A DNA stretch of 64,000 nt from Pseudarthrobacter siccitolerans (GTDB lineage: Bacteria; Actinomycetota; Actinomycetes; Actinomycetales; Micrococcaceae), in NCBI RefSeq assembly GCF_001046895.1, contig NZ_CAQI01000059.1:186001-250000 (forward strand), read 5' to 3'. Below the pieces are notes generated by a model. That model was not told the origin of the DNA and made no database searches. It was given only the letters and a program-made list of their open reading frames with translations. Numbering within the stretch: the stretch's first letter is position 1; each line of letters starts with the position of its first letter. Below are positions 54,311 through 64,000 of this stretch, piece after piece. The position numbers and the translations under genes were made by a program.

Positions 54311-55396
54311 ATGGGCAGCATGGAACTTCCCGTGCTGCCGCCAGTCCCGCCCATGCTCGCCAAGGCCGTTAGCGGCATTCCGGAAGGAGACCTCAGCTAT
54401 GAGCCCAAGTGGGACGGGTTCCGGTCCATCATTTTCCGGGACGGCGACGAACTGGAGATCGGAAGCCGCAACGAAAAGCCCATGACCCGCTACTTTCCCG
54501 AGCTCGTGGCGGCCCTGAAGGAAAACCTGCCGCCGCGGTGCGTGGTGGACGGTGAGATCATCCTGATCGGCCCGTCCGGCGACCGGCTGGACTTCGACGC
54601 CCTCCAGCAGCGCATCCATCCCGCGGCCAGCCGGGTGAAGCTGCTGGCCGCCCAGACGCCCGCCTCGTTCGTGGCGTTTGACCTGCTGGCCCTGGGAGAG
54701 GACGACTACACGGGCCGGCCCTTCACGGAACGGCGGGCGGCACTCGAGAAGGCGCTCGCGGCCAGCGAGGCTCCCGTCCACCTCACCGCGGCCACCACGG
54801 ACAAGGACACCGCCACCCGGTGGTTCGAGCAGTTTGAGGGCGCCGGACTGGACGGGGTGGTGGCCAAACGCCTGGACGGGCGGTACGAGCCGGACAAACG
54901 GGTGATGTTCAAGACCAAGCACGAGCGCACGGCCGACTGCGTGGTGGCCGGATACCGGCTGCACAAGAGCGGGCCGGATGCCATCGGCTCGCTGCTGCTG
55001 GGGCTGTACAAGGACGACGGCGGCCTGGCCAGCGTGGGCGTGATCGGCGCCTTCCCGATGAAGCGCCGCCAGGAGCTGTTCGAACAGCTGCAGCCGCTGG
55101 TCACCGATTTTGATCACCACCCCTGGGCGTGGGCGAAGCAGGAGGAAGGCGAGCGGACGCCGCGGAACGCCGAGGGCAGCCGCTGGAGTGCCGGCAAGGA
55201 TCTGTCCTTCGTGCCGCTGCGCCCGGAGCTGGTGGTGGAGGTCCGGTACGACCACATGGAAGGCGACAGGTTCCGGCACACTGCCCAGTTCAACCGCTGG
55301 CGCCCGGACCGGGAACCGGAATCATGCACCTATGCGCAGCTGGAGGAACCGGTCAGCTTTGACCTGGCCTCGGTGCTGGAGACCGGGCGGCCGTAG
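54311..55396 (+). CDS. ligC: ATP-dependent DNA ligase, LigC type
   Basis: A 361-residue ligase with the nucleotidyltransferase domain and OB fold only. Motif I is EPKWDGFRSI with nucleophile Lys33; motif III VVDGEIILIG and FVAFDLLALG, motif IV LDGVVAKRLDG, motif V MFKTKHERTADCVV follow. LigC of mycobacteria is a backup ligase in repair. No Ku or polymerase/primase gene adjoins. Its last 44 bp overlap the 3' end of the convergent ABC ATPase gene. Confidence 0.93.
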   Translation: MGSMELPVLPPVPPMLAKAVSGIPEGDLSYEPKWDGFRSIIFRDGDELEIGSRNEKPMTRYFPELVAALKENLPPRCVVDGEIILIGPSGDRLDFDALQQRIHPAASRVKLLAAQTPASFVAFDLLALGEDDYTGRPFTERRAALEKALAASEAPVHLTAATTDKDTATRWFEQFEGAGLDGVVAKRLDGRYEPDKRVMFKTKHERTADCVVAGYRLHKSGPDAIGSLLLGLYKDDGGLASVGVIGAFPMKRRQELFEQLQPLVTDFDHHPWAWAKQEEGERTPRNAEGSRWSAGKDLSFVPLRPELVVEVRYDHMEGDRFRHTAQFNRWRPDREPESCTYAQLEEPVSFDLASVLETGRP

Positions 55397-57002
55397 CATC
55401 CAGCAGGCTCCAGAGCCCGTCCGCGCGGCACGGGATCGAGGCCTCCACCAGGGCCTGGCTGTGCGGGTGCCGGGGCGCGGCGAAGAAGTCCCTGGTCTCG
55501 GCCACTTCCACCACCCGGCCCTCCAGCAGGACAGCCACCCTGTCGCACATGTACCGCACCACATCCATGTCATGTGAGATGACGATGAGGGACAGGTTGT
55601 GTTCGCGCTGCAGCCGCAGGAGCAGTTTCAGGATGGTGCGCTGGGTCAGTGCGTCCAGGGCTGAGGTGGCCTCGTCGCAGATCAGGACCTGGGGTTCCAG
55701 CAGCAGGGCACGGGCAATGGTGGCCCGCTGCAGCTGCCCGCCGGAGCACTGGCCCGGCCGCTTGTCCAGGAGCGCCGCGTCCAGTTCCACCTCGGCCATC
55801 GCGGCGGCGATCCGCTCATCGCGCTCTTCTTGCGACAGATCGCGGCGCGGGCGCAGCGGTGCCTGCAGGCTGGTGCGCAGGGTCATCCGCGGGTCAAAAG
55901 CGCCGTGCGGTTCCTGGAACACCAGTTGGACGGCGGTAGCCTGCCGCGCGTCGCTTGGGTCCAGGTGCCGGGTGATGGATCCAGTGCTGGCGGGTTCCAG
56001 GCCGACGATGGCTTTGGCCAGGGTGCTTTTGCCCGAGCCCGACTGGCCCAGCACGCCCAGGATCTCCCCGCGCCGCAGGGTCAGCGAGACGTCCTGCAGC
56101 GCGGTATGCTCCCGTTTCCGCCGCGGCCCGAAATGCTTGCCCACGCTCTCCAGCACCAGGACGTCCCGTTCGGTAGAGGGCGGACGGCGGCGGGACTCCG
56201 GCGCCAGGCGCGCGGCGGCCAGCAGCTCGCGGGTGTAGGAAGTCTGCGGCCGGGTGAGCAGGTCACCGGCAGGACCGGCCTCCACGATGGTCCCGGCCTT
56301 CATCACCAGCACCTTGTCGGCGAAGGCGGCCACGGACGCGATGTTGTGCGTGATGTACAGGATGCCCAGCCCGCGTTCCCGGCGTTCGCGCTCCAGCAGC
56401 TGCAGGATCTGGCGCTCGAGCACCTTGTCCAGCGCCGACGTCGGCTCGTCCGCCAGCAGCATTCCGGGCTGGCCCGCCAGCGCCAGGGCTGTCATGGCGC
56501 GCTGCGCCATGCCTCCGGAGAGCTGGTGCGGGTAGGCACGGAGGCCCTTGGCGGGATCGGCGAAGCCCACCTCGTCCAGCAGTTCCAGCGCCTTGCCGCG
56601 AGCCTTGGCCCCGCGGAGCCCGGCATGCTGGCGGAGGGGCTCTTTGAGGTGCTGCCCGACGGTCCGGTTCGGGTTGAACATCCGTTTGGGCTGCTGGAAC
56701 AGCATGCCCAGCCTCCCGCCGCGCACGGAGTTGAGTTCCTGTTCCGACGCGCAGGTCAGGTCCAGGCCGCCGAGCCGGATGGACCCGCCCGTGATCCGCA
56801 GGCTGGGCGGCAGGAGCCGCAGGCAGGACATCGCGGTCAGGGTCTTGCCGGAACCGGAACTGCCCACCAGCGCCACGAATTCACCGGGATCCACGGACAG
56901 GGACACATCGGAGAGCAGGGGCCTGGCGGAAGTCCCGCCGTCGGACTCCTGCTGGCTCACCTGCAGCCCGTCGAGGAGCAGCCCGGAGTCCAGGGGGCTC
57001 AT
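55353..57002 (-). CDS. ABC transporter, two fused ATPase domains (DppD-DppF-like)
   Basis: A 549-residue protein with two ATPase units. Unit 1: Walker A V-G-S-S-G-S-G-K-T (about 47-54), signature LSGGMAQR, Walker B LLADEPTSALD. Unit 2 (from about 285): Walker A LGQSGSGKST, signature CSGGQLQR, Walker B LICDEATSALD. Separate DppD and DppF genes are fused here. It powers the two permeases upstream. The ATG at 57002 overlaps the permease stop (ATGA). The 3' end overlaps ligC by 44 bp on the other strand. Confidence 0.92.
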   Translation of the reverse strand: MSPLDSGLLLDGLQVSQQESDGGTSARPLLSDVSLSVDPGEFVALVGSSGSGKTLTAMSCLRLLPPSLRITGGSIRLGGLDLTCASEQELNSVRGGRLGMLFQQPKRMFNPNRTVGQHLKEPLRQHAGLRGAKARGKALELLDEVGFADPAKGLRAYPHQLSGGMAQRAMTALALAGQPGMLLADEPTSALDKVLERQILQLLERERRERGLGILYITHNIASVAAFADKVLVMKAGTIVEAGPAGDLLTRPQTSYTRELLAAARLAPESRRRPPSTERDVLVLESVGKHFGPRRKREHTALQDVSLTLRRGEILGVLGQSGSGKSTLAKAIVGLEPASTGSITRHLDPSDARQATAVQLVFQEPHGAFDPRMTLRTSLQAPLRPRRDLSQEERDERIAAAMAEVELDAALLDKRPGQCSGGQLQRATIARALLLEPQVLICDEATSALDALTQRTILKLLLRLQREHNLSLIVISHDMDVVRYMCDRVAVLLEGRVVEVAETRDFFAAPRHPHSQALVEASIPCRADGLWSLLDATAARSPAPRPGQS

Positions 57003-57829
57003 TTTTCCGCCGCCAGGGGGAGCAGCAACGGTGCCGCGGCCATGTGCGCTGCGCGCTGGCCGATCAGGGTGACACAGAGCGCCACGAGGAAAATGGCCAG
57101 GCCCGGTGCGAGGATCCCCATCGGTGCGCGGTCCGCGAAGGGCTGCGCTGCTGCCAGCATGGAACCCCAGTCCGACTGCGGCGGCTGGACGCCCAGGCCC
57201 AGGTAGGAGAGGGCGCCCACGCTGATGAGCAGGTGCCCGAATCGCAGGGTTGCCTGGCCCAGGATCGGTGCCGCGAGGTGGGGCAGCACGTGCCGGAAGA
57301 TAATGAACGACGGCGGGCAGCCCACCACGCGGGCGGCCTCCACGAAGCCGCGGGCCGAGACGTCGTAGGCCAGGGTCCGGGCCAGGCGGGCGAAGGGAGT
57401 CCACCCCGTAACCGTCAGGGCGAGCAGCAGCGGCCCGAAGCCCGTGCCCAGCGCCGCCACGATGAACAGGGCGACCACCATTTCCGGCAGGGCAAGCAGG
57501 ACGTCGTTGGTGCGGGTCAGGAATTCATCCACCCAGCCCCTGCGGCGTGCGCTCAGGATCCCGATGGCTACTCCGAGCAGGCACGTCAGCACCGTGGCAA
57601 GCGCCGCCACGGACATGGAAAACCGGCCGCCTTCGAGGACCCGGCTGAGGGTGTCCCGGCCCAGGTTGTCGGTGCCCAGCCAGTGTTCGGCCGAGGGCGC
57701 GGCCAGGCGCTCGGCCAGGTTCTGCTCCGCGGGCGGATAGGGCGAAATCCAGGGCGCCAGCAGCACTGCCAGCACAATGGCGGCAAGCACGGCGGCTGCC
57801 ACGGTGGACACGGTAAGCCGGCTACGCAA
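56999..57829 (-). CDS. ABC transporter permease (DppC-like)
   Basis: A 276-residue permease with six helices. The N-terminal helix and LAPWISPYPPAEQNLAERLA, then HWLGTDNLGRDTLSRVLEGG are standard for the DppC/OppC group; the cytosolic EAA loop reads EAARVVGCPPSFIIFRHVLPH. It forms the channel with the DppB-like partner. It overlaps that gene by 8 bp and the ATPase by 4 bp. Confidence 0.92.
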   Translation of the reverse strand: MRSRLTVSTVAAAVLAAIVLAVLLAPWISPYPPAEQNLAERLAAPSAEHWLGTDNLGRDTLSRVLEGGRFSMSVAALATVLTCLLGVAIGILSARRRGWVDEFLTRTNDVLLALPEMVVALFIVAALGTGFGPLLLALTVTGWTPFARLARTLAYDVSARGFVEAARVVGCPPSFIIFRHVLPHLAAPILGQATLRFGHLLISVGALSYLGLGVQPPQSDWGSMLAAAQPFADRAPMGILAPGLAIFLVALCVTLIGQRAAHMAAAPLLLPLAAEK

Positions 57830-58763
57830 GGGTTCCTCCCACCGTGCGGCTGAGGAACCGGTGGACGAAGTCCGCCAGGGTGGTCACGCCGACGGCGAGT
57901 GCCACCACAACCACCACTCCACCCTGGGCGAGCGGGATATCGCTGTTCACCACGGCATCGAAAAGCAGCCTGCCCATGCCCGGTACGGCGAAAATGACCT
58001 CCACGATCACCGACCCGCCCAGCAGGCCGGCGAACCACACGGCGAACAGGGTGGACAGCGGCACCAGGCCGTTCGGCACCACGTGGCGGAGGATCGCCTG
58101 GCCCTGGCTCAGCCCGCGGGCACGGGCCGCCGGCACGTGCTCTGCCGCTGCTGCATCGATGATCCCGGCGCGGACCGCCGAGGTGAAGAAGCTGATGGGC
58201 CGCAGCGCAAGGGTCAGGGCCGGCAGTACGGCGGAGGAGAGGTCATTCCAGCCGGCCGTGGGCAGGAGCGACAGTTTCAGGGCGAAGACCAGGACCAGCA
58301 CGGGAGCCACCCAGTACTCGGGCATGGCTATCAGGGCCTGGGTCACTGCCGTAATGGCCTTGTCCGCAACGCTTCCGGGGCGCAGCCCCGAAAGAATCCC
58401 CAGGGGGAGTGCTACGGCCGCGGCCAGGACCAGCGACATGGTGACCAGGCTGAGCGTCACGGACAGCGCCGGCAGCACCTGTTCCGCCACCGGGGTGCGG
58501 CTGACGAAGGACAGGCCCATGTCGCCGCTGAAGAAATCCCCGAGCCAACGGAAGTATTGGACGGCCAGGGGATCGTTCAGGCCGAGGCTTTCGCTGAGGC
58601 CCTGCACCGCAGAGTCGTCGACGGCGTCGCCCGCCACGCGTGAGCGGATGATCTTCCGTACCGGGTCCCCGGGCGTGAAGTACGGGATCAGGAAGACCGC
58701 AAACGAGGACACCACAACGGCGGCCACCAGGGTGGCCGTCCGTTTGGTGATGAACTGCAGCAT
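57822..58763 (-). CDS. ABC transporter permease (DppB-like)
   Basis: A 313-residue permease with six helices. TLVAAVVVSSFAVFLIPYFT, PGDPVRKI, LGLNDPLAVQYFRWLGDFFSG-type sequence and the EAA loop AAAAEHVPAARARGLSQ are typical of DppB/OppB. The ATG at 58763 begins directly before helix 1; upstream frame to 58847 overlaps the binding-protein gene. 22 bp follows the binding-protein stop, so it belongs to the same operon. Confidence 0.92.
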   Translation of the reverse strand: MLQFITKRTATLVAAVVVSSFAVFLIPYFTPGDPVRKIIRSRVAGDAVDDSAVQGLSESLGLNDPLAVQYFRWLGDFFSGDMGLSFVSRTPVAEQVLPALSVTLSLVTMSLVLAAAVALPLGILSGLRPGSVADKAITAVTQALIAMPEYWVAPVLVLVFALKLSLLPTAGWNDLSSAVLPALTLALRPISFFTSAVRAGIIDAAAAEHVPAARARGLSQGQAILRHVVPNGLVPLSTLFAVWFAGLLGGSVIVEVIFAVPGMGRLLFDAVVNSDIPLAQGGVVVVVALAVGVTTLADFVHRFLSRTVGGTLA

Positions 58764-58785
58764 TTTGCGGTGTGAGTCTGGGGAA

Positions 58786-60342
58786 CTAGGACGCGGCCTT
58801 GGCCGTCTTCGCGGTGGGGACGTAGCGGGACAGCGGGTCCTGGACATAGTTCAGGACGTTGGTCCGGGTGGCGTCGGTGGCCTGCTCATTGACCAGCCAG
58901 GCGTTGACGGCCTTGTCCTGCAGGATCCGGCCTGCCTCCGCGTACAGCTTGTAGCGCTCGGTGGTGTCCACTGTGGTGGCGGCTTCGGCGATGATCCGGT
59001 CGTATTCTGCGTCGCAGAAGTGGCTCAGGTTGTAGGTGCCTTTGCAGGTGTAGTCGGCGGTGAGGAAGCCGATGGGGTCGGCGATGTCGATCAGCCGGTT
59101 CCGCTGGCTGAGCAGCATGTCGTAGTTGCCGGCCAGGACGTCCGGCTCCGCGGAGGCGTATTCCTTGGAGGTGATGGCCACGGGGATGCCGATGTTCTTC
59201 AGGTTCTCCTGCACAACGGCGGCGACGTCCGCAAATTCGGCGCGCTCCACGATGGCGATGATTTCCAGGGGGCGGTCGGCGGTGTAGCCGGCCTTGGCGA
59301 GCAGCTTGCGGGCTTCCTCGAGGTCCTGCTGCTGCTTGTCCTGCTTCCCGCCGGCCCAGGGCTCGGACGGGGCAAACGGTCCGGTGGCCGGAAGCGCTGC
59401 GCCTTCGTAGACGCTGGCGGCCAGCGCATCAAGGTCCAGTGCCTCGCGGATCGCCGTGCGGACGTCAACATTGTCCAGCGGGGCACGGCCGTTGTTCATG
59501 TACATCGTGGCAGTGCGCGGCGAATCGGCGCCCAGGACGGAGACGCCCTTGTCCGCCTTCAGCGCCGCGAGGCTGGCGACGGGGATGGACAGCGAGATAT
59601 CCGCTTCGCCCGTCTGCACCTGGGCGGCACGAGTGGGGCCGTTGGTGATGAAGCGGACCTCGGCGCCGGCAAGCTGTACGTCGCCGCCCCAGTAGTTCTC
59701 GTTGCGGTCCAGGGTGAGGGACTGCTTTGCCTTCTCCGAGACGGGAGTGAAAGGCCCGGTGCAGTGCCCGAACGGGTCCAGGCCTTCAGCCTTGTAGGCG
59801 GCCGGCGCCAGGATGCCGGTGTTGACGCTGGCCAGCCGGTAGGGCACCAGCGGGTTTTCGGCCGGGGTGCTGACCCGGACCGTCTGGCCGTCCACTGCGG
59901 TGACACTGCCGATCATGGTGCGGTTGAAGGCCCGCGCCGGAACCTTCGCGTCCAGGACGTGGTTGAGTGCCGACGCCACGGACCCGGCGGTGAGGTCGGT
60001 GCCGTCCTGGAACTTGACGCCCTGGCGGATGCTGAAGTCCCAGTCCAGCGGTGAGGACTGCTTCCACTCGGTGGCAAGCGACGGCAGGACCTTGCCCTCG
60101 GCCTGGTTGTAGGTGGTCAGGGTCTCCAGGCAGCCGGAGAGGGAGAGGATGTACGCGGCATCCGATTCCACGGCCCAGTTGGCCACCGGTGCGCGGAAGT
60201 TGTCCACCACAATCCGCTGGCTGGTGTCCGCCGCAGCGCTGGGCTGGGTGGACTGGGTCTGGGTGCCGCTGAAACCGCAGCCCGTCAAGGTGAGGGCAGC
60301 GGCCGCGGCCAGGAGGACGCGGGGACGGAGGGAGGAGCGCAC
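58786..60342 (-). CDS. ABC transporter substrate-binding lipoprotein (family 5)
   Basis: A 518-residue extracytoplasmic lipoprotein. Signal peptide with lipobox L-T-G-C (Cys22). The SBP_bac_5 fold has LSGCLETLTTYNQAEGKVLP, DFSIRQGVKFQDGTDLTAGS, and DVRTAIREALDLDALAASVY. Family 5 proteins bind peptides, nickel, opine-type metallophores or heme. The gene is the first of the operon SBP-DppB-DppC-ATPase and has a DtxR/IdeR-like box 58 bp upstream, pointing to an iron-related ligand. Extra Cys residues (for example YTCKGTYNLSHFCDAEYD) may form a disulfide. Confidence 0.9.
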   Translation of the reverse strand: MRSSLRPRVLLAAAAALTLTGCGFSGTQTQSTQPSAAADTSQRIVVDNFRAPVANWAVESDAAYILSLSGCLETLTTYNQAEGKVLPSLATEWKQSSPLDWDFSIRQGVKFQDGTDLTAGSVASALNHVLDAKVPARAFNRTMIGSVTAVDGQTVRVSTPAENPLVPYRLASVNTGILAPAAYKAEGLDPFGHCTGPFTPVSEKAKQSLTLDRNENYWGGDVQLAGAEVRFITNGPTRAAQVQTGEADISLSIPVASLAALKADKGVSVLGADSPRTATMYMNNGRAPLDNVDVRTAIREALDLDALAASVYEGAALPATGPFAPSEPWAGGKQDKQQQDLEEARKLLAKAGYTADRPLEIIAIVERAEFADVAAVVQENLKNIGIPVAITSKEYASAEPDVLAGNYDMLLSQRNRLIDIADPIGFLTADYTCKGTYNLSHFCDAEYDRIIAEAATTVDTTERYKLYAEAGRILQDKAVNAWLVNEQATDATRTNVLNYVQDPLSRYVPTAKTAKAAS

Positions 60343-60399
60343 AGGAAACCGCCTAGCAGGGCTGCCGTGGGGAAGGGCAGGGATAAAAAGGGGACTGAC

Positions 60400-60418
60400 T
60401 TAGGGTAGCCTTCCCTTC
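60400..60418. promoter_or_regulatory. DtxR/IdeR-like iron box upstream of the ABC importer
   Basis: The 19 bp at this site match the actinobacterial iron-box consensus at 14 positions, including the left T-T-A-G-G, the central T-A-G-C-C-T and the right C-C-T. TACCCT (complement of 60410-60401 region) may be the -10, so binding would block transcription under high iron. Confidence 0.55.
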
Positions 60419-60500
60419 CGCAAAGACGTGAATTGATGAAGTTGATGCTCAGCCGCAGGGATGGAGCATGCGCGTGCCGGAACAGCCCGCTTTATACAAA

Positions 60501-60536
60501 GGAAAGCCCGCCATTTGGGGGAATGGCGGGCTTTCC
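60501..60536 (-). terminator. Terminator of the MHS transporter gene
   Basis: A perfect 15 bp stem (60501-60515 with 60522-60536) and 6-nt loop, followed on the minus strand by TTTGTAT. It starts 44 nt after the transporter stop and separates it from the ABC importer promoter. Confidence 0.85.
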
Positions 60537-60580
60537 GGTCTGAAAACCGGGCTGGAATGGCGTCCGGTGGGGCAGAAAGG

Positions 60581-61900
60581 CTACTTCAGGCCGAGCTGCT
60601 TGGTGGGGATTTTGTAGGACTCCTTGGCCGTCAGCGCGGAGATGGCTGCCACTGTGCAGATGACGGCGGTGAAGATGCTGATCTGGACCCAGCCGCCGGG
60701 CTTGATGCCGCCCATGGCTGCCACGATTGCGGGGGCGAATCCTGCCATCAGGAAGCCCAGCTGGGTGCCGATGGCCAGGCCGGAGAAGCGGACCTTGGTG
60801 CTGAACATCTCGGCGTAGAAGGACGGCCAGACGGCGTTGGAGGCAGCGTAGCCGCAGGAGAAGAAACCGATGGCGGCCAGGAACATCAGCGGCACGCTGC
60901 CGGATTCGAGGCTGAGCAGGAAAACGGGCGTGAGCGCGGCGCTGGCGAGGGCGCCGTAGATGAAGACGGGCTTGCGGCCGATCTTGTCCGCCAGCATGCC
61001 GAACAGCGACTGGGTGCCCAGCGCCACGAGGTTGGCGCCGACCACGAGCCACAGGGTGGTGGTGCCGTCCACGCCGGCGACGGTCTTGGCGTAGCTGATG
61101 GCGAGGGTTCCGAACACTGTGGACACGGCGGCGATGAAGGCGCAGCAGATCACGCGCAGGACGTCGCGCCAGTGGCCCTTCAGCAGGTCGGCTACGGGGA
61201 GCTTGGAGATCTGGGCCGTCTTCTGGGCTTCTTCGAAAGCCGGCGGCTCGTGCAGGGTGCGTCGGATGAAGAACGCAACGATCACCACGACGGCGCTCAG
61301 CCAGAACGGAATGCGCCAGCCGATGCCGTACTTGAGCTCGTCCGGGAGGGCCAGGACGGGGATGAAGACGAGGGCGGCGAGGATCTGGCCGCCCTGGGTG
61401 CCGGTGAGGGTCCAGGAGGTGAAGAAGGAGCGGCGGTTGTCCGGTGCGTGTTCCAGTGTCATGGAGGAGGCGCCGGCCTGCTCGCCTGCGGCGGAGAGGC
61501 CCTGGCAGAGCCGGGCGAGGACCAGCAGGGCCGGGGCCCACCAGCCAACGGTGTTGAAGTCCGGCAGGCAGCCGATCAGGAAAGTGGAGGCGCCCATGAG
61601 GAGGAGGGTGAACATCAGGACCTTCCGCCGGCCCACCCTGTCGCCGAAGTGGCCCAGGATGACGGCACCGACGGGCCGTGCCACGTAGGCGAAGCCGAAG
61701 GTGGCGAAGGACATGATCGCTGCGTTGGCGTCAGCATCCGGGAAGAAGACCGTGGGAAAGATCAGGGCAGCGGCGGAACCGAAGATGAAGAAGTCGTAGT
61801 ATTCGACGGCGCTGCCCAGGAAGCTTGCGAGGGCTGCCTTCTTCGGCGTCCCGGCCGGGGCAGCGATGCCTGGCTCAGCGGACGGAAGTATCTGGCTCAT
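60581..61900 (-). CDS. MFS transporter, metabolite:H+ symporter (MHS) family
   Basis: A 439-residue, 12-helix transporter. FLGSAVEYYDFFIFGSAAAL is the MHS-specific start, GHFGDRVGRRKVLMFTLLLM is MFS motif A, and RLCQGLSAAGEQAGASSMTL lies in helix 4. MHS members import shikimate, citrate, proline betaine or aromatic acids. Beside an IclR regulator and a quinate/shikimate dehydrogenase, uptake of shikimate or quinate is the best guess. Terminated by the hairpin at 60501-60536. A 20 bp candidate operator lies upstream (62013-62032). Confidence 0.9.
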   Translation of the reverse strand: MSQILPSAEPGIAAPAGTPKKAALASFLGSAVEYYDFFIFGSAAALIFPTVFFPDADANAAIMSFATFGFAYVARPVGAVILGHFGDRVGRRKVLMFTLLLMGASTFLIGCLPDFNTVGWWAPALLVLARLCQGLSAAGEQAGASSMTLEHAPDNRRSFFTSWTLTGTQGGQILAALVFIPVLALPDELKYGIGWRIPFWLSAVVVIVAFFIRRTLHEPPAFEEAQKTAQISKLPVADLLKGHWRDVLRVICCAFIAAVSTVFGTLAISYAKTVAGVDGTTTLWLVVGANLVALGTQSLFGMLADKIGRKPVFIYGALASAALTPVFLLSLESGSVPLMFLAAIGFFSCGYAASNAVWPSFYAEMFSTKVRFSGLAIGTQLGFLMAGFAPAIVAAMGGIKPGGWVQISIFTAVICTVAAISALTAKESYKIPTKQLGLK

Positions 61901-62012
61901 GGAGTTCCTTTGATGTGACGACTTTGTCGCGGATGGATCGGGGGGCTGCAGCCGGCGCGGCCCAGGTGTTGCCTTCGGGGAGCGCGGCTGCAGTGCGGGA
62001 GAACCCGGACAG

Positions 62013-62032
62013 TAGCCACATGGTGGGAGCTA
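62013..62032 (-). promoter_or_regulatory. Candidate IclR-family operator, copy facing the MHS gene
   Basis: On the minus strand this 20-mer reads TAGCTCCCACCATGTGGCTA and matches the copy at 62101-62120 at 17 of 20 positions, in opposite orientation. It lies 113 bp before the transporter start. Confidence 0.5.
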
Positions 62033-62100
62033 CTTGTGCGATACAGCAATGATGGCTGTGAGGGCAGTCACTTGTCAACAAAATAATCATTCAGTAGCAA

Positions 62101-62120
62101 TAGCTCTCACAATGTGGCAA
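62101..62120 (+). promoter_or_regulatory. Candidate IclR-family operator, copy facing the IclR gene
   Basis: The plus-strand 20-mer matches the complement of 62013-62032 (consensus TAGCTCYCACMATGTGGCWA). TTGTCA (62072-62077) and TAGCAA (62095-62100) could be the -35/-10 of the regulator gene, so this site would sit over the transcription start and give autoregulation. Confidence 0.5.
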
Positions 62121-62129
62121 CATCGAGGT

Positions 62130-62957
62130 ATGAGTGTGAACCAAGCCACAGCCCCCGATGATGTTGCCGCTGACGAAAACCCGCCCAAAGCAGGGCGGTC
62201 CGCCGACCGGACCGACATGGTGGGCAAGGCCCTGGGCCTTCTGGTCCTCCTGGGTGACGAGCCCCGCGGCGCCAGTGCGGCGGAAATCTCCCGCCGCGCC
62301 CAGCTGCCCTTCAGTACCACATACCGGCTCCTTGGCTCCCTGACGCGGGACGGCTTTGTGGACTACGAGCCCGATGGCCGCCGCTACCACCTCGGCCTGC
62401 GGATCTTCCAGCTGGGCCAGCGGGTCTCCAACCACCATGGCTTCGCCGGAACGGCCCTGCCCGTCCTGCGCCGCGTGACCGAGCAGACCGGTGAGGCTAC
62501 CATCCTCAGTGTCCGCGACGGCCACCATCACCTCACGGTGAACAAGGTGGACGGGCCGCAGATGTTCCGGGTAACCAGCGATCCTGGCCACCTGGGCTCC
62601 CTGTCCACCACCGCCGTCGGAAAAGCCCTGGTGGCGTTCGCCGAGGATGCGGAGCGCGAAAAGCTCCTGGCGGAGCTTCCGCTCGAGCCGCTGACGGAGA
62701 AATCCATTACCGACAGGGATGCCTTCCGTGCCGAAATCGAGCTGGTCCGCCGCCGCGGATTCGCCGTGATGGATGAGGAAAACGAGCTCGGGATGCGCGC
62801 CGTGGCGGTTCCGCTGCTCAACCACCAGGGCCACGCGTTCGCTTCGCTGGCCACGGCGGTTCCGGTTTTCCGCCTCGGCCTGGAGGGCCTGGAGGCGCAC
62901 GTCCCGCTGCTTCAGGAAGCGGCGGCCGAGCTCGCCGCACGCCTGCCGCAGCGGTAG
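62130..62957 (+). CDS. IclR family transcriptional regulator
   Basis: A 275-residue regulator. The winged helix covers GASAAEISRRAQLPFSTTYRL then L-G-S-L-T-R-D-G-F-V; the effector domain has YHLGLRIFQLGQRV, L-R-R-V-T-E-Q-T-G-E, HLGSLSTTAVGKALVAF and FAVMDEENELGMRAVAVPL. IclR proteins commonly control aromatic and quinate/shikimate catabolism. Divergent from the MHS transporter and followed by the dehydrogenase. ATG 62130 directly follows GAGGT; a GTG two codons in (62136) has better spacing. Confidence 0.9.
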   Translation: MSVNQATAPDDVAADENPPKAGRSADRTDMVGKALGLLVLLGDEPRGASAAEISRRAQLPFSTTYRLLGSLTRDGFVDYEPDGRRYHLGLRIFQLGQRVSNHHGFAGTALPVLRRVTEQTGEATILSVRDGHHHLTVNKVDGPQMFRVTSDPGHLGSLSTTAVGKALVAFAEDAEREKLLAELPLEPLTEKSITDRDAFRAEIELVRRRGFAVMDEENELGMRAVAVPLLNHQGHAFASLATAVPVFRLGLEGLEAHVPLLQEAAAELAARLPQR

Positions 62958-62986
62958 TAGCTGAGCCCGCAGAAGCGTCAGATTGC

Positions 62987-63020
62987 CGCACTTTGTTCGT
63001 ATCTAGAACAAGCGTGCGGA
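62987..63020. promoter_or_regulatory. Nested palindrome upstream of the quinate/shikimate dehydrogenase
   Basis: TTGTTC (62994-62999) and GAACAA (63007-63012) are perfect inverted arms; outside them CCGCAC (62987-62992) and GTGCGG (63015-63020) are again perfect. No T-run follows. It lies 94 bp before the start codon, so an operator is more likely than a terminator of the IclR gene. Confidence 0.5.
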
Positions 63021-63113
63021 AAGTGAACAAATGATGTACCGTAATTTCCATCACCCGGCAGTGCACCCTCCGCAAGGAAGCTGCCAAGGTGCCGTATCAA
63101 AGGAGCTGCACGG

Positions 63114-63995
63114 ATGAGTAATCGAACTGAGTCCTACCTGGTGGGACTGGTCGGCGATGGCGTGATGCCGTCACTCACCCCGCCCATGCATGAACGCGAA
63201 GGGGACGTGCAGGGCCTGCGCTACCTGTACCGCCCCATCGACCTGCTGCAGCTCGGCCTTCCCGGCGAGTCCGTGGGACAGCTGCTGCAGAGCGCCCGCA
63301 GCCTCGGATTCAACGGCCTGAACATCACCCACCCCTGCAAACAGCTGGTCCTGCAGCATCTGGATGAAGTGTCCCCGGACGCGCTGCGGCTGGGAGCGGT
63401 CAACACCGTGGTGATCGAGGACGGCCGCTTCATCGGCCACAACACCGACTTCTCCGGCTTCGCTGCAGCCCTCGCCGCCGGACTCCCCGGCGCCAAGCTG
63501 GACCGCGTGGTGCAGTTGGGTGCCGGCGGCGCCGGCTCCGCCGTGGCCTACGCCCTGCTCACCGCCGGCGTCCGCCGCCTGCACCTGGTGGACATGGACG
63601 CCGCCCGCGGCGCTGCCCGGGCCGCCGAGCTCGCAGGCTTCTTCCCGGACAGCACCGTCACGGCACATACGACGGCGGAGCTGCCGCAGCTGATGCCCCT
63701 GGCCGGCGGGCTGGTGCACTGCACCCCCGTGGGCATGGCCGCCCACCCCGGGCTCCCGCTGGACCTGGACCTGGTGGAGTCACGCCACTGGGTGGCGGAC
63801 ATCGTCTACCGCCCCATCGAGACCGAACTGGTCCGCGGCGCCCGCGCCAAGGGCTGCGAGGTGCTGGACGGCGGCCGGATGGCCGTGGGCCAGGCCGCGG
63901 ACGCCTTCCGTATCTTCACCGGCCTCGAACCCGACCCGGACCGGATGCGCAGCCACTTCCTGGAGCTTGTGGCCGCCGAAGAGGTGGCCGCCTGA
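63114..63995 (+). CDS. Quinate/shikimate dehydrogenase (AroE family, catabolic type)
   Basis: A 293-residue AroE-fold enzyme. The substrate site has P-S-L-T-P-P-M-H-E near residue 20: the second Ser of biosynthetic AroE (S-x-S) is Thr, as in the catabolic QsuD-type quinate/shikimate dehydrogenases of corynebacteria. NGLNITHPCKQLV holds the catalytic Lys and G-H-N-T-D-F-S-G-F the Asp; QLGAGGAGSAVAYALL binds NAD(P). It would oxidise quinate or shikimate to the 3-dehydro acid. The stop overlaps ATGCGC at 63995, the probable start of the next, unseen gene. Confidence 0.9.
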   Translation: MSNRTESYLVGLVGDGVMPSLTPPMHEREGDVQGLRYLYRPIDLLQLGLPGESVGQLLQSARSLGFNGLNITHPCKQLVLQHLDEVSPDALRLGAVNTVVIEDGRFIGHNTDFSGFAAALAAGLPGAKLDRVVQLGAGGAGSAVAYALLTAGVRRLHLVDMDAARGAARAAELAGFFPDSTVTAHTTAELPQLMPLAGGLVHCTPVGMAAHPGLPLDLDLVESRHWVADIVYRPIETELVRGARAKGCEVLDGGRMAVGQAADAFRIFTGLEPDPDRMRSHFLELVAAEEVAA

Positions 63996-64000
63996 TGCGC

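Follow-up and report, generated by a model that had tools for sequence, protein, structure and literature searches.

A conserved iron box precedes a family-5 ABC importer operon of Pseudarthrobacter siccitolerans that may serve azetidine plant metallophores

Results

The window analyzed here is a 64,000-nucleotide stretch of Pseudarthrobacter siccitolerans DNA (positions 186001-250000 of contig C59 in a genome of 4.77 Mb, G000), and our subject is an operon within it that encodes a family-5 ATP-binding cassette (ABC) importer and is preceded by a DtxR/IdeR-like iron box. The elements and genes, in the order in which they are read, are as follows.

60400-60418, minus strand: DtxR/IdeR-like iron box, GAAGGGAAGGCTACCCTAA, 14 of 19 positions matching the consensus, 57 nucleotides before the GTG start codon
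60349-60354, minus strand: ribosome-binding-site-like AGGCGG preceding the GTG; the AGG-GG columns are kept when 18 upstream regions are aligned
58786-60342, minus strand: family-5 binding lipoprotein, 518 amino acids, GTG start; SBP_bac_5, 257.1 bits (Pfam cut-off 32.4)
57822-58763, minus strand: permease B, DppB/NikB type, 313 amino acids, start refined; BPD_transp_1, 115.8 bits, and BPD_transp_1_N
56999-57829, minus strand: permease C, DppC/NikC type, 276 amino acids, TTG start; BPD_transp_1, 107.3 bits, and OppC_N
55353-57002, minus strand: fused ATPase, DppD-DppF type, 549 amino acids; two ABC_tran stretches and oligo_HPY in a single frame

The products of eight genes in 54311-63995 were compared with a curated family library. 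The operon products comprise an SBP_bac_5 protein, two BPD_transp_1 permeases, and two ATPases, all above the Pfam cut-offs and encoded by adjacent genes on one strand, with the ATG of the fused ATPase (57002) overlapping the stop codon of permease C. A sequence-only reading of this DNA had proposed a family-5 ABC importer with fused ATPases, and both this assignment and the coordinates and box count that it gave were correct on recount. It had also called the DppD-DppF fusion less common, but a fusion as such is unremarkable; dedicated curated models exist for fused pairs, YejF and GsiA among them. The lipobox cysteine of the binding protein is residue 22 and is invariant across 17 aligned relatives. 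The closest named relative of this protein, at 95% identity, is from Arthrobacter sp. Alg241-R88, and one related binding-protein gene (G602:C1:799356-800894) carries a single in-frame TGA. No Rfam match that could indicate a riboswitch was found in 55000-64000 at E 0.1.

Box scores were counted over the 19 positions of a DtxR/IdeR consensus; read on the plus strand, the window box scores 13/19. In a first survey of 99 genomes, 18 (the window's own included) encode a binding protein of at least 71% identity, and all 18 orthologues have a box of 14-17/19, on either strand, at -76 to -104 relative to the match start. The DNA flanking the box diverges among these orthologues while the box stays. 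A wider scan of named genomes kept 78 loci: 50 with at least 62% identity, which we call the iron clade (Arthrobacter, Pseudarthrobacter, Paenarthrobacter, Glutamicibacter, Kocuria, Sinomonas, Zafaria, Citricoccus, and Nesterenkonia), 13 with 41-52% identity, the sister clade, and 15 unrelated family-5 loci with 24-32% identity. Up to 350 bp upstream were searched, counted from the tblastn match start, which does not always equal the start codon. The best upstream box scored 14-17/19 at 49 of the 50 iron-clade loci, the exception being L072 (12/19), and no more than 11/19 at all 13 sister and all 15 unrelated loci. When the 50 upstream stretches were replaced by first-order Markov versions, a score of 14 was reached in 12 of 5000. 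Set against this null, the conservation of the box (18 of 18 and 49 of 50 loci) identifies it as a real element and leads us to reject a chance match. Where both halves of the ATPase were found, a single open frame encodes them at 42 of 48 iron-box loci versus 1 of 11 sister loci.

The genome encodes two DtxR-family proteins: L185, which passes the actinobacterial DtxR equivalog model (304.2 bits, cut-off 290), and L184, which more closely resembles MntR. A strict search that allowed at most three mismatches to the consensus returned no site in the window and one genome-wide. A degenerate pattern, devised after the window box was seen and allowed one mismatch, returned seven sites genome-wide versus four for the reversed control; the window hit is therefore circular, and only the other six sites count. 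Four of these adjoin genes for uptake binding proteins, either Peripla_BP_2 (L054, where FecCD also adjoins, L057, and L058) or SBP_bac_6 (L056). The remaining two, L053 and L055, have no obvious iron-uptake gene: L053 lies at a trehalose-phosphatase/glucosidase-like gene, judged by eye, and the box-like site at L055:1501-1515 stands just before a large gene that by eye resembles an AMP ligase and adjoins a CopC-domain gene. No siderophore cluster was evident beside L055 on reading of the stretch. At the sequence level, then, a conserved box precedes the operon and a DtxR repressor is present in the same genome, as in a DtxR/IdeR regulon. Similar boxes also stand beside other genes for uptake proteins, and membership of the operon in the DtxR iron regulon of the strain is therefore very probable, although we infer the repression itself. 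The same three lines of evidence give good support to the iron control suggested by the sequence-only reading, and the importer is in all likelihood iron-regulated. The arrangement resembles the DtxR/IdeR regulons of Actinobacteria in its box, repressor, and iron-uptake targets, but differs in having a family-5 importer as a target, a case for which we found no precedent in open-access text.

The nearest solved chains to the binding protein are nickel-binding proteins, but the protein scores below the curated cut-offs for NikA (133 of 393) and CntA (91.7 of 800), and fails the DppA model as well. The permeases are below those for NikB (217.1 of 447) and NikC (246.3 of 358.45). The ATPase passes NikD (405.1, cut-off 318.7) and NikE (367.1, cut-off 332.55), while the scores for the Cnt models were 176.1 of 440 for CntC, 376.1 of 380 for CntD, and 379.1 of 385 for CntF. 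A search of G000 for the opine dehydrogenase CntM gave no match, and control genomes were equally silent. A structure model of the binding protein (mean pLDDT 74.5) was considered as a guide to the ligand and set aside, as it matches many family-5 proteins about equally, with Z values within 1 treated as ties.

The genes that accompany the binding-protein family were detected with identity thresholds of 40-50% in the fetched flanks. Five sister operons from four genera (Actinopolymorpha, L103; Streptomyces, L108; Rhodococcus, L110; Nonomuraea, L120 and L121) have, on one strand, genes for the binding protein, a HAD-type hydrolase, a DAO-family FAD oxidase, two permeases, a GntR regulator, two ATPases, and an aldehyde dehydrogenase, in that order. 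Over all 13 sister loci the hydrolase was found at 9, the oxidase at 8, the aldehyde dehydrogenase at 10, a tartrate-dehydrogenase-type enzyme at 5, and GntR at 9; none of these five partner genes was found at any of the 15 unrelated family-5 loci. Within the fetched flanks of the 50 iron-box loci, 11 have the hydrolase, at 67-100% identity to the reference proteins, and 6 of the 11 also have the oxidase, aldehyde dehydrogenase, and tartrate-type dehydrogenase. At L076, L078, L084, and L102, the same-strand genes immediately upstream encode the hydrolase together with a D-2-hydroxyacid dehydrogenase. Among 14 hydrolase stretches away from the importer, the hydrolase is followed by the oxidase in 8, and the rest are lone hydrolases or lie at contig ends; L166, L167, L168, and L171 encode hydrolase, oxidase, aldehyde dehydrogenase, tartrate-type dehydrogenase, and 2-hydroxyacid dehydrogenase consecutively. 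The L168 island also encodes an aspartase above its cut-off (690.9, cut-off 681.2). Thus, the set linked to the binding-protein family consists, as judged from homology, of a hydrolase of the azetidine-hydrolase kind, an FAD amine oxidase, and an aldehyde dehydrogenase, joined at some loci by a tartrate/D-malate-type dehydrogenase and an aspartase. A role for the partner island in phosphonate catabolism was considered and rejected, all phosphonate-type models scoring far below their cut-offs.

Several of these genomes have further features. Beside the L168 hydrolase island (L168:2960-9651) are a family-3 ABC importer and a second amine oxidase above cut-off, and the locus also encodes a class III aminotransferase and a semialdehyde dehydrogenase, both below cut-off. 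One genome of Paenarthrobacter nitroguajacolicus has two iron-boxed binding proteins on separate scaffolds (L082 and L100), with a hydrolase island near L082 only. G049 has, over several contigs, seven hydrolase matches at E <=1e-30, some lone and some with the oxidase.

The best solved match of the linked hydrolase is a deposited L-azetidine-2-carboxylate hydrolase (3smv, 8ywo, 9v14), with 99.7 bits for the L041 protein and 86.1 for that of L048; solved sequences outside the azetidine-hydrolase and 8hp5-8hp7 groups reach at most 47 bits. The catalytic-type Asp and Lys are invariant in the hydrolase alignment and are replaced in 8yvw/8hp6 and 8hp7. These invariant residues are shared with that deposited enzyme, the L-azetidine-2-carboxylate hydrolase of Pseudomonas sp. 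A2C, from which the linked enzyme differs in that it accompanies a metallophore-type importer and is not found in the window's genome; its substrate is putative. The L041 hydrolase also passes the type II haloacid dehalogenase model TIGR01428 (140.9, cut-off 125.4). The tartrate-type dehydrogenase, for which 3flk is nearest, passes TIGR02089 (506.5, cut-off 470.4), a group that we take to include D-malate enzymes.

The hydrolase and the importer also co-occur across genomes. In a first set of 61 genomes from the window's genus, the hydrolase (E <=1e-30) occurs in 12, every one of which also encodes the binding protein, of the iron-clade type in 11 and of the sister-clade type in 1; it was found in none of the 42 genomes without the binding protein. 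When the comparison was enlarged to 206 genomes of this genus, with matches accepted at E <=1e-70 (hydrolase) or <=1e-100 (binding protein), 65 have the importer, 48 the hydrolase, 39 both, and 132 neither, with 15.1 expected to have both; this corresponds to an odds ratio of 22 (Fisher p 2e-16), or 20.9 (37 of 46) after two sister-clade genomes are removed, in statistics that ignore kinship. In at least 16 genomes, two of them sister-clade, the importer and hydrolase lie within 20 kb of each other. A class-wide scan, in which few candidates were scored per genome, found the binding protein in only 4 of 394 genomes and was not used.

The surroundings of the operon were also annotated. A convergent gene for an ATP-dependent DNA ligase (54311-55396) overlaps the 3' end of the fused-ATPase gene by 44 bases (55353-55396). 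Upstream of the operon (60581-63995) are genes for a major facilitator superfamily (MFS) metabolite/H+ symporter, whose nearest equivalog model is a shikimate transporter with a score below cut-off, an IclR-type regulator, and a shikimate dehydrogenase-family protein above its subfamily cut-off. Together these are perhaps a shikimate/quinate cluster, and the same three kinds of gene are clustered again in L032 and L034.

Discussion

To our knowledge, the iron chelators that carry an azetidine ring are nicotianamine and the mugineic-acid phytosiderophores. Nicotianamine consists of an azetidine ring and two aminobutyrate units (PMC10341464), mugineic acids derive from nicotianamine (PMC7786132), and the bacterial azetidine hydrolase yields 2-hydroxy-4-aminobutyrate (PMC8016842). 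We propose, at about an even chance, that the operon encodes a DtxR-repressed importer of iron bound to such a plant-made azetidine chelator, either nicotianamine or one of the mugineic-acid phytosiderophores. The association of the binding-protein family with the catabolic genes is what points to this ligand, and we hold its assignment to be evenly balanced. The sequence-only reading had named an opine-type metallophore, heme, or a peptide siderophore as possible ligands; the first of these came near the mark, but the evidence favors azetidine metallophores made by plants over heme, a peptide siderophore, or an opine that the cell makes itself.

According to this proposal, DtxR would leave the box at low iron, allowing expression of the operon; the lipoprotein would capture the iron chelate, the ABC pump would import it, and the iron would be freed inside the cell. 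In strains with the island, the hydrolase would then open the azetidine ring to leave a 2-hydroxy-4-amino acid end, the FAD oxidase would cleave C-N bonds to give C4 semialdehydes, and the aldehyde dehydrogenase would convert these to malate or aspartate, which the tartrate/D-malate-type dehydrogenase and aspartase could channel to central metabolism. If the ring is opened with inversion at C2 and the amine is then oxidized, the products would be D-malate semialdehyde and subsequently D-malate, a likely reason for the tartrate/D-malate-type enzyme. The aminobutyrate units would pass through aspartate semialdehyde to aspartate, which could account for the aspartase, and the hydroxybutyrate unit of mugineic acids would give L-malate.

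Two known family-5 systems are close to the one proposed. Like NikABCDE, whose proteins (NikA, SaNikA) are the nearest solved relatives of the binding protein, it would import small metal chelates, but the NikA, NikB, and NikC models fail, an iron box takes the place of nickel control, and the ATPases are fused. The staphylopine importer CntABCDF carries a nicotianamine-like metallophore and is alike in fold (5yhe); here, however, the CntA model fails, no synthesis genes were found with the window importer, and the ligand would be made by plants rather than by the cell.

Several observations weigh against import of a plant azetidine chelate. In the window's own genome, the hydrolase was not found at E <=0.001, nor the oxidase at E <=1e-10, and 26 of the 65 importer-bearing genomes lack the hydrolase, as 9 of the 48 hydrolase-bearing genomes lack the importer. 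The co-occurrence statistic is uncorrected for kinship. The hydrolase is only about 33% identical to the azetidine hydrolase over the matched segment, and 8hp5, named only as an (S)-2-haloacid dehalogenase, scores nearly as well as the best match (98.4 bits for L041, 84.0 for L048). Among the 12 hydrolase islands examined for an iron box, the best score was 11/19, and such islands may receive their substrate through a different importer. Sister binding proteins are only 41-52% identical to the iron-clade proteins, so the ligand may have shifted between the clades. The family-3 importer of L168 may feed its island with a smaller amino acid, and that island could therefore serve free azetidine-2-carboxylate. 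Finally, nickel-, signal-, and dipeptide-binding proteins tie as fold neighbors of the modeled binding protein at Z 32-33, singling out no ligand.

Other ligands were weighed against the same evidence. It is possible, though unlikely, that the operon is an iron-controlled importer of some other aminopolycarboxylate or opine-type metallophore of bacterial or fungal origin (staphylopine-like or EDDS-like), with the hydrolase acting on another 2-substituted acid. The nearest named families, the nickel and staphylopine importers, are consistent with this, with NikD and NikE passing and CntF and CntD falling just short, and actinobacterial opine-metallophore clusters, some encoding dipeptide-type importers, have been described (PMC7438024). 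However, CntA and NikA fail clearly, the link with the hydrolase is indicative of an azetidine ring, and CntM gave no match in the genome, albeit in that search whose controls gave nothing either. A ligand of heme or a peptide siderophore, again under iron control, is very unlikely: a heme-binding family-5 protein is among the structural neighbors (SapA with heme, 7ofw, Z 28.9), but no heme-degrading or siderophore genes are among the annotated neighbors, a subset of the called genes, and the recurrent neighbors are catabolic enzymes of amino-acid type.

The family might instead import an azetidine or amino acid as a carbon or nitrogen source, with iron control grafted on secondarily in the Micrococcaceae. 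The sister clade, without the box and with GntR and catabolic genes at 9 of its 13 loci, fits such a history, yet we consider it improbable. The box is present at nearly every iron-clade locus, in at least eight named genera, many loci having no catabolic genes nearby, so that iron, not carbon, is what these loci have in common; an amino-acid importer, moreover, would presumably be better suited to free azetidine-2-carboxylate than one of family 5. That the operon is an ordinary nickel or peptide importer with a fortuitous box is hardly credible. A score of 14/19 is indecisive by itself, and the strict search misses the window site, but retention of the box in both surveys, against the Markov null and between diverging flanks, speaks strongly against chance.

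Import of a plant azetidine chelate would also bear on what happens to these compounds in soil. Mugineic acids are reported to be readily degraded by soil microbes, whereas a proline analogue is longer-lived (PMC7946895), and the azetidine-to-proline change lowers microbial degradation (PMC12364333; PMC12723747), as would be expected were enzymatic opening of the azetidine the decisive step. A 2021 paper describes the taxa and genes of phytosiderophore metabolism as unknown (PMC7786132), and we found no bacterial gene for phytosiderophore or nicotianamine uptake reported in open-access papers, although one may exist in print. Actinobacteria are reported to increase upon loss of the maize phytosiderophore exporter (PMC8163885), which neither supports nor excludes the plant-metallophore proposal. 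In salt-stressed wheat roots inoculated with Arthrobacter nitroguajacolicus, eight nicotianamine synthase genes were raised (PMC6370872). Another strain of that species (L082) carries the operon and the hydrolase island; given the difference in strain, the rise is only suggestive.

The window strain appears, from its gene content, to have only the import half of the system, and with neither hydrolase nor oxidase found in its genome, the importer there would be solely an iron pirate. Given the importer-bearing genomes without the hydrolase, the iron clade seems to serve iron gain throughout, with catabolism as an option. More broadly, and somewhat more tentatively, Arthrobacter and its relatives may share a widespread, iron-repressed import of whole Fe-phytosiderophore or Fe-nicotianamine, with an optional island that burns the chelator as food. 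Phytosiderophores are the route by which grasses obtain iron. If the proposal is true, these would be candidate genes for bacterial phytosiderophore use and a genetic basis for rapid phytosiderophore loss in soil, and they would explain the longer life of the fertilizer analogue in which proline replaces azetidine. From the operon and island come an enzyme step that can be named, the opening of the azetidine, and a simple prediction, that the proline analogue is spared; with these genes in hand, an old question of plant nutrition and rhizosphere ecology would become directly testable.

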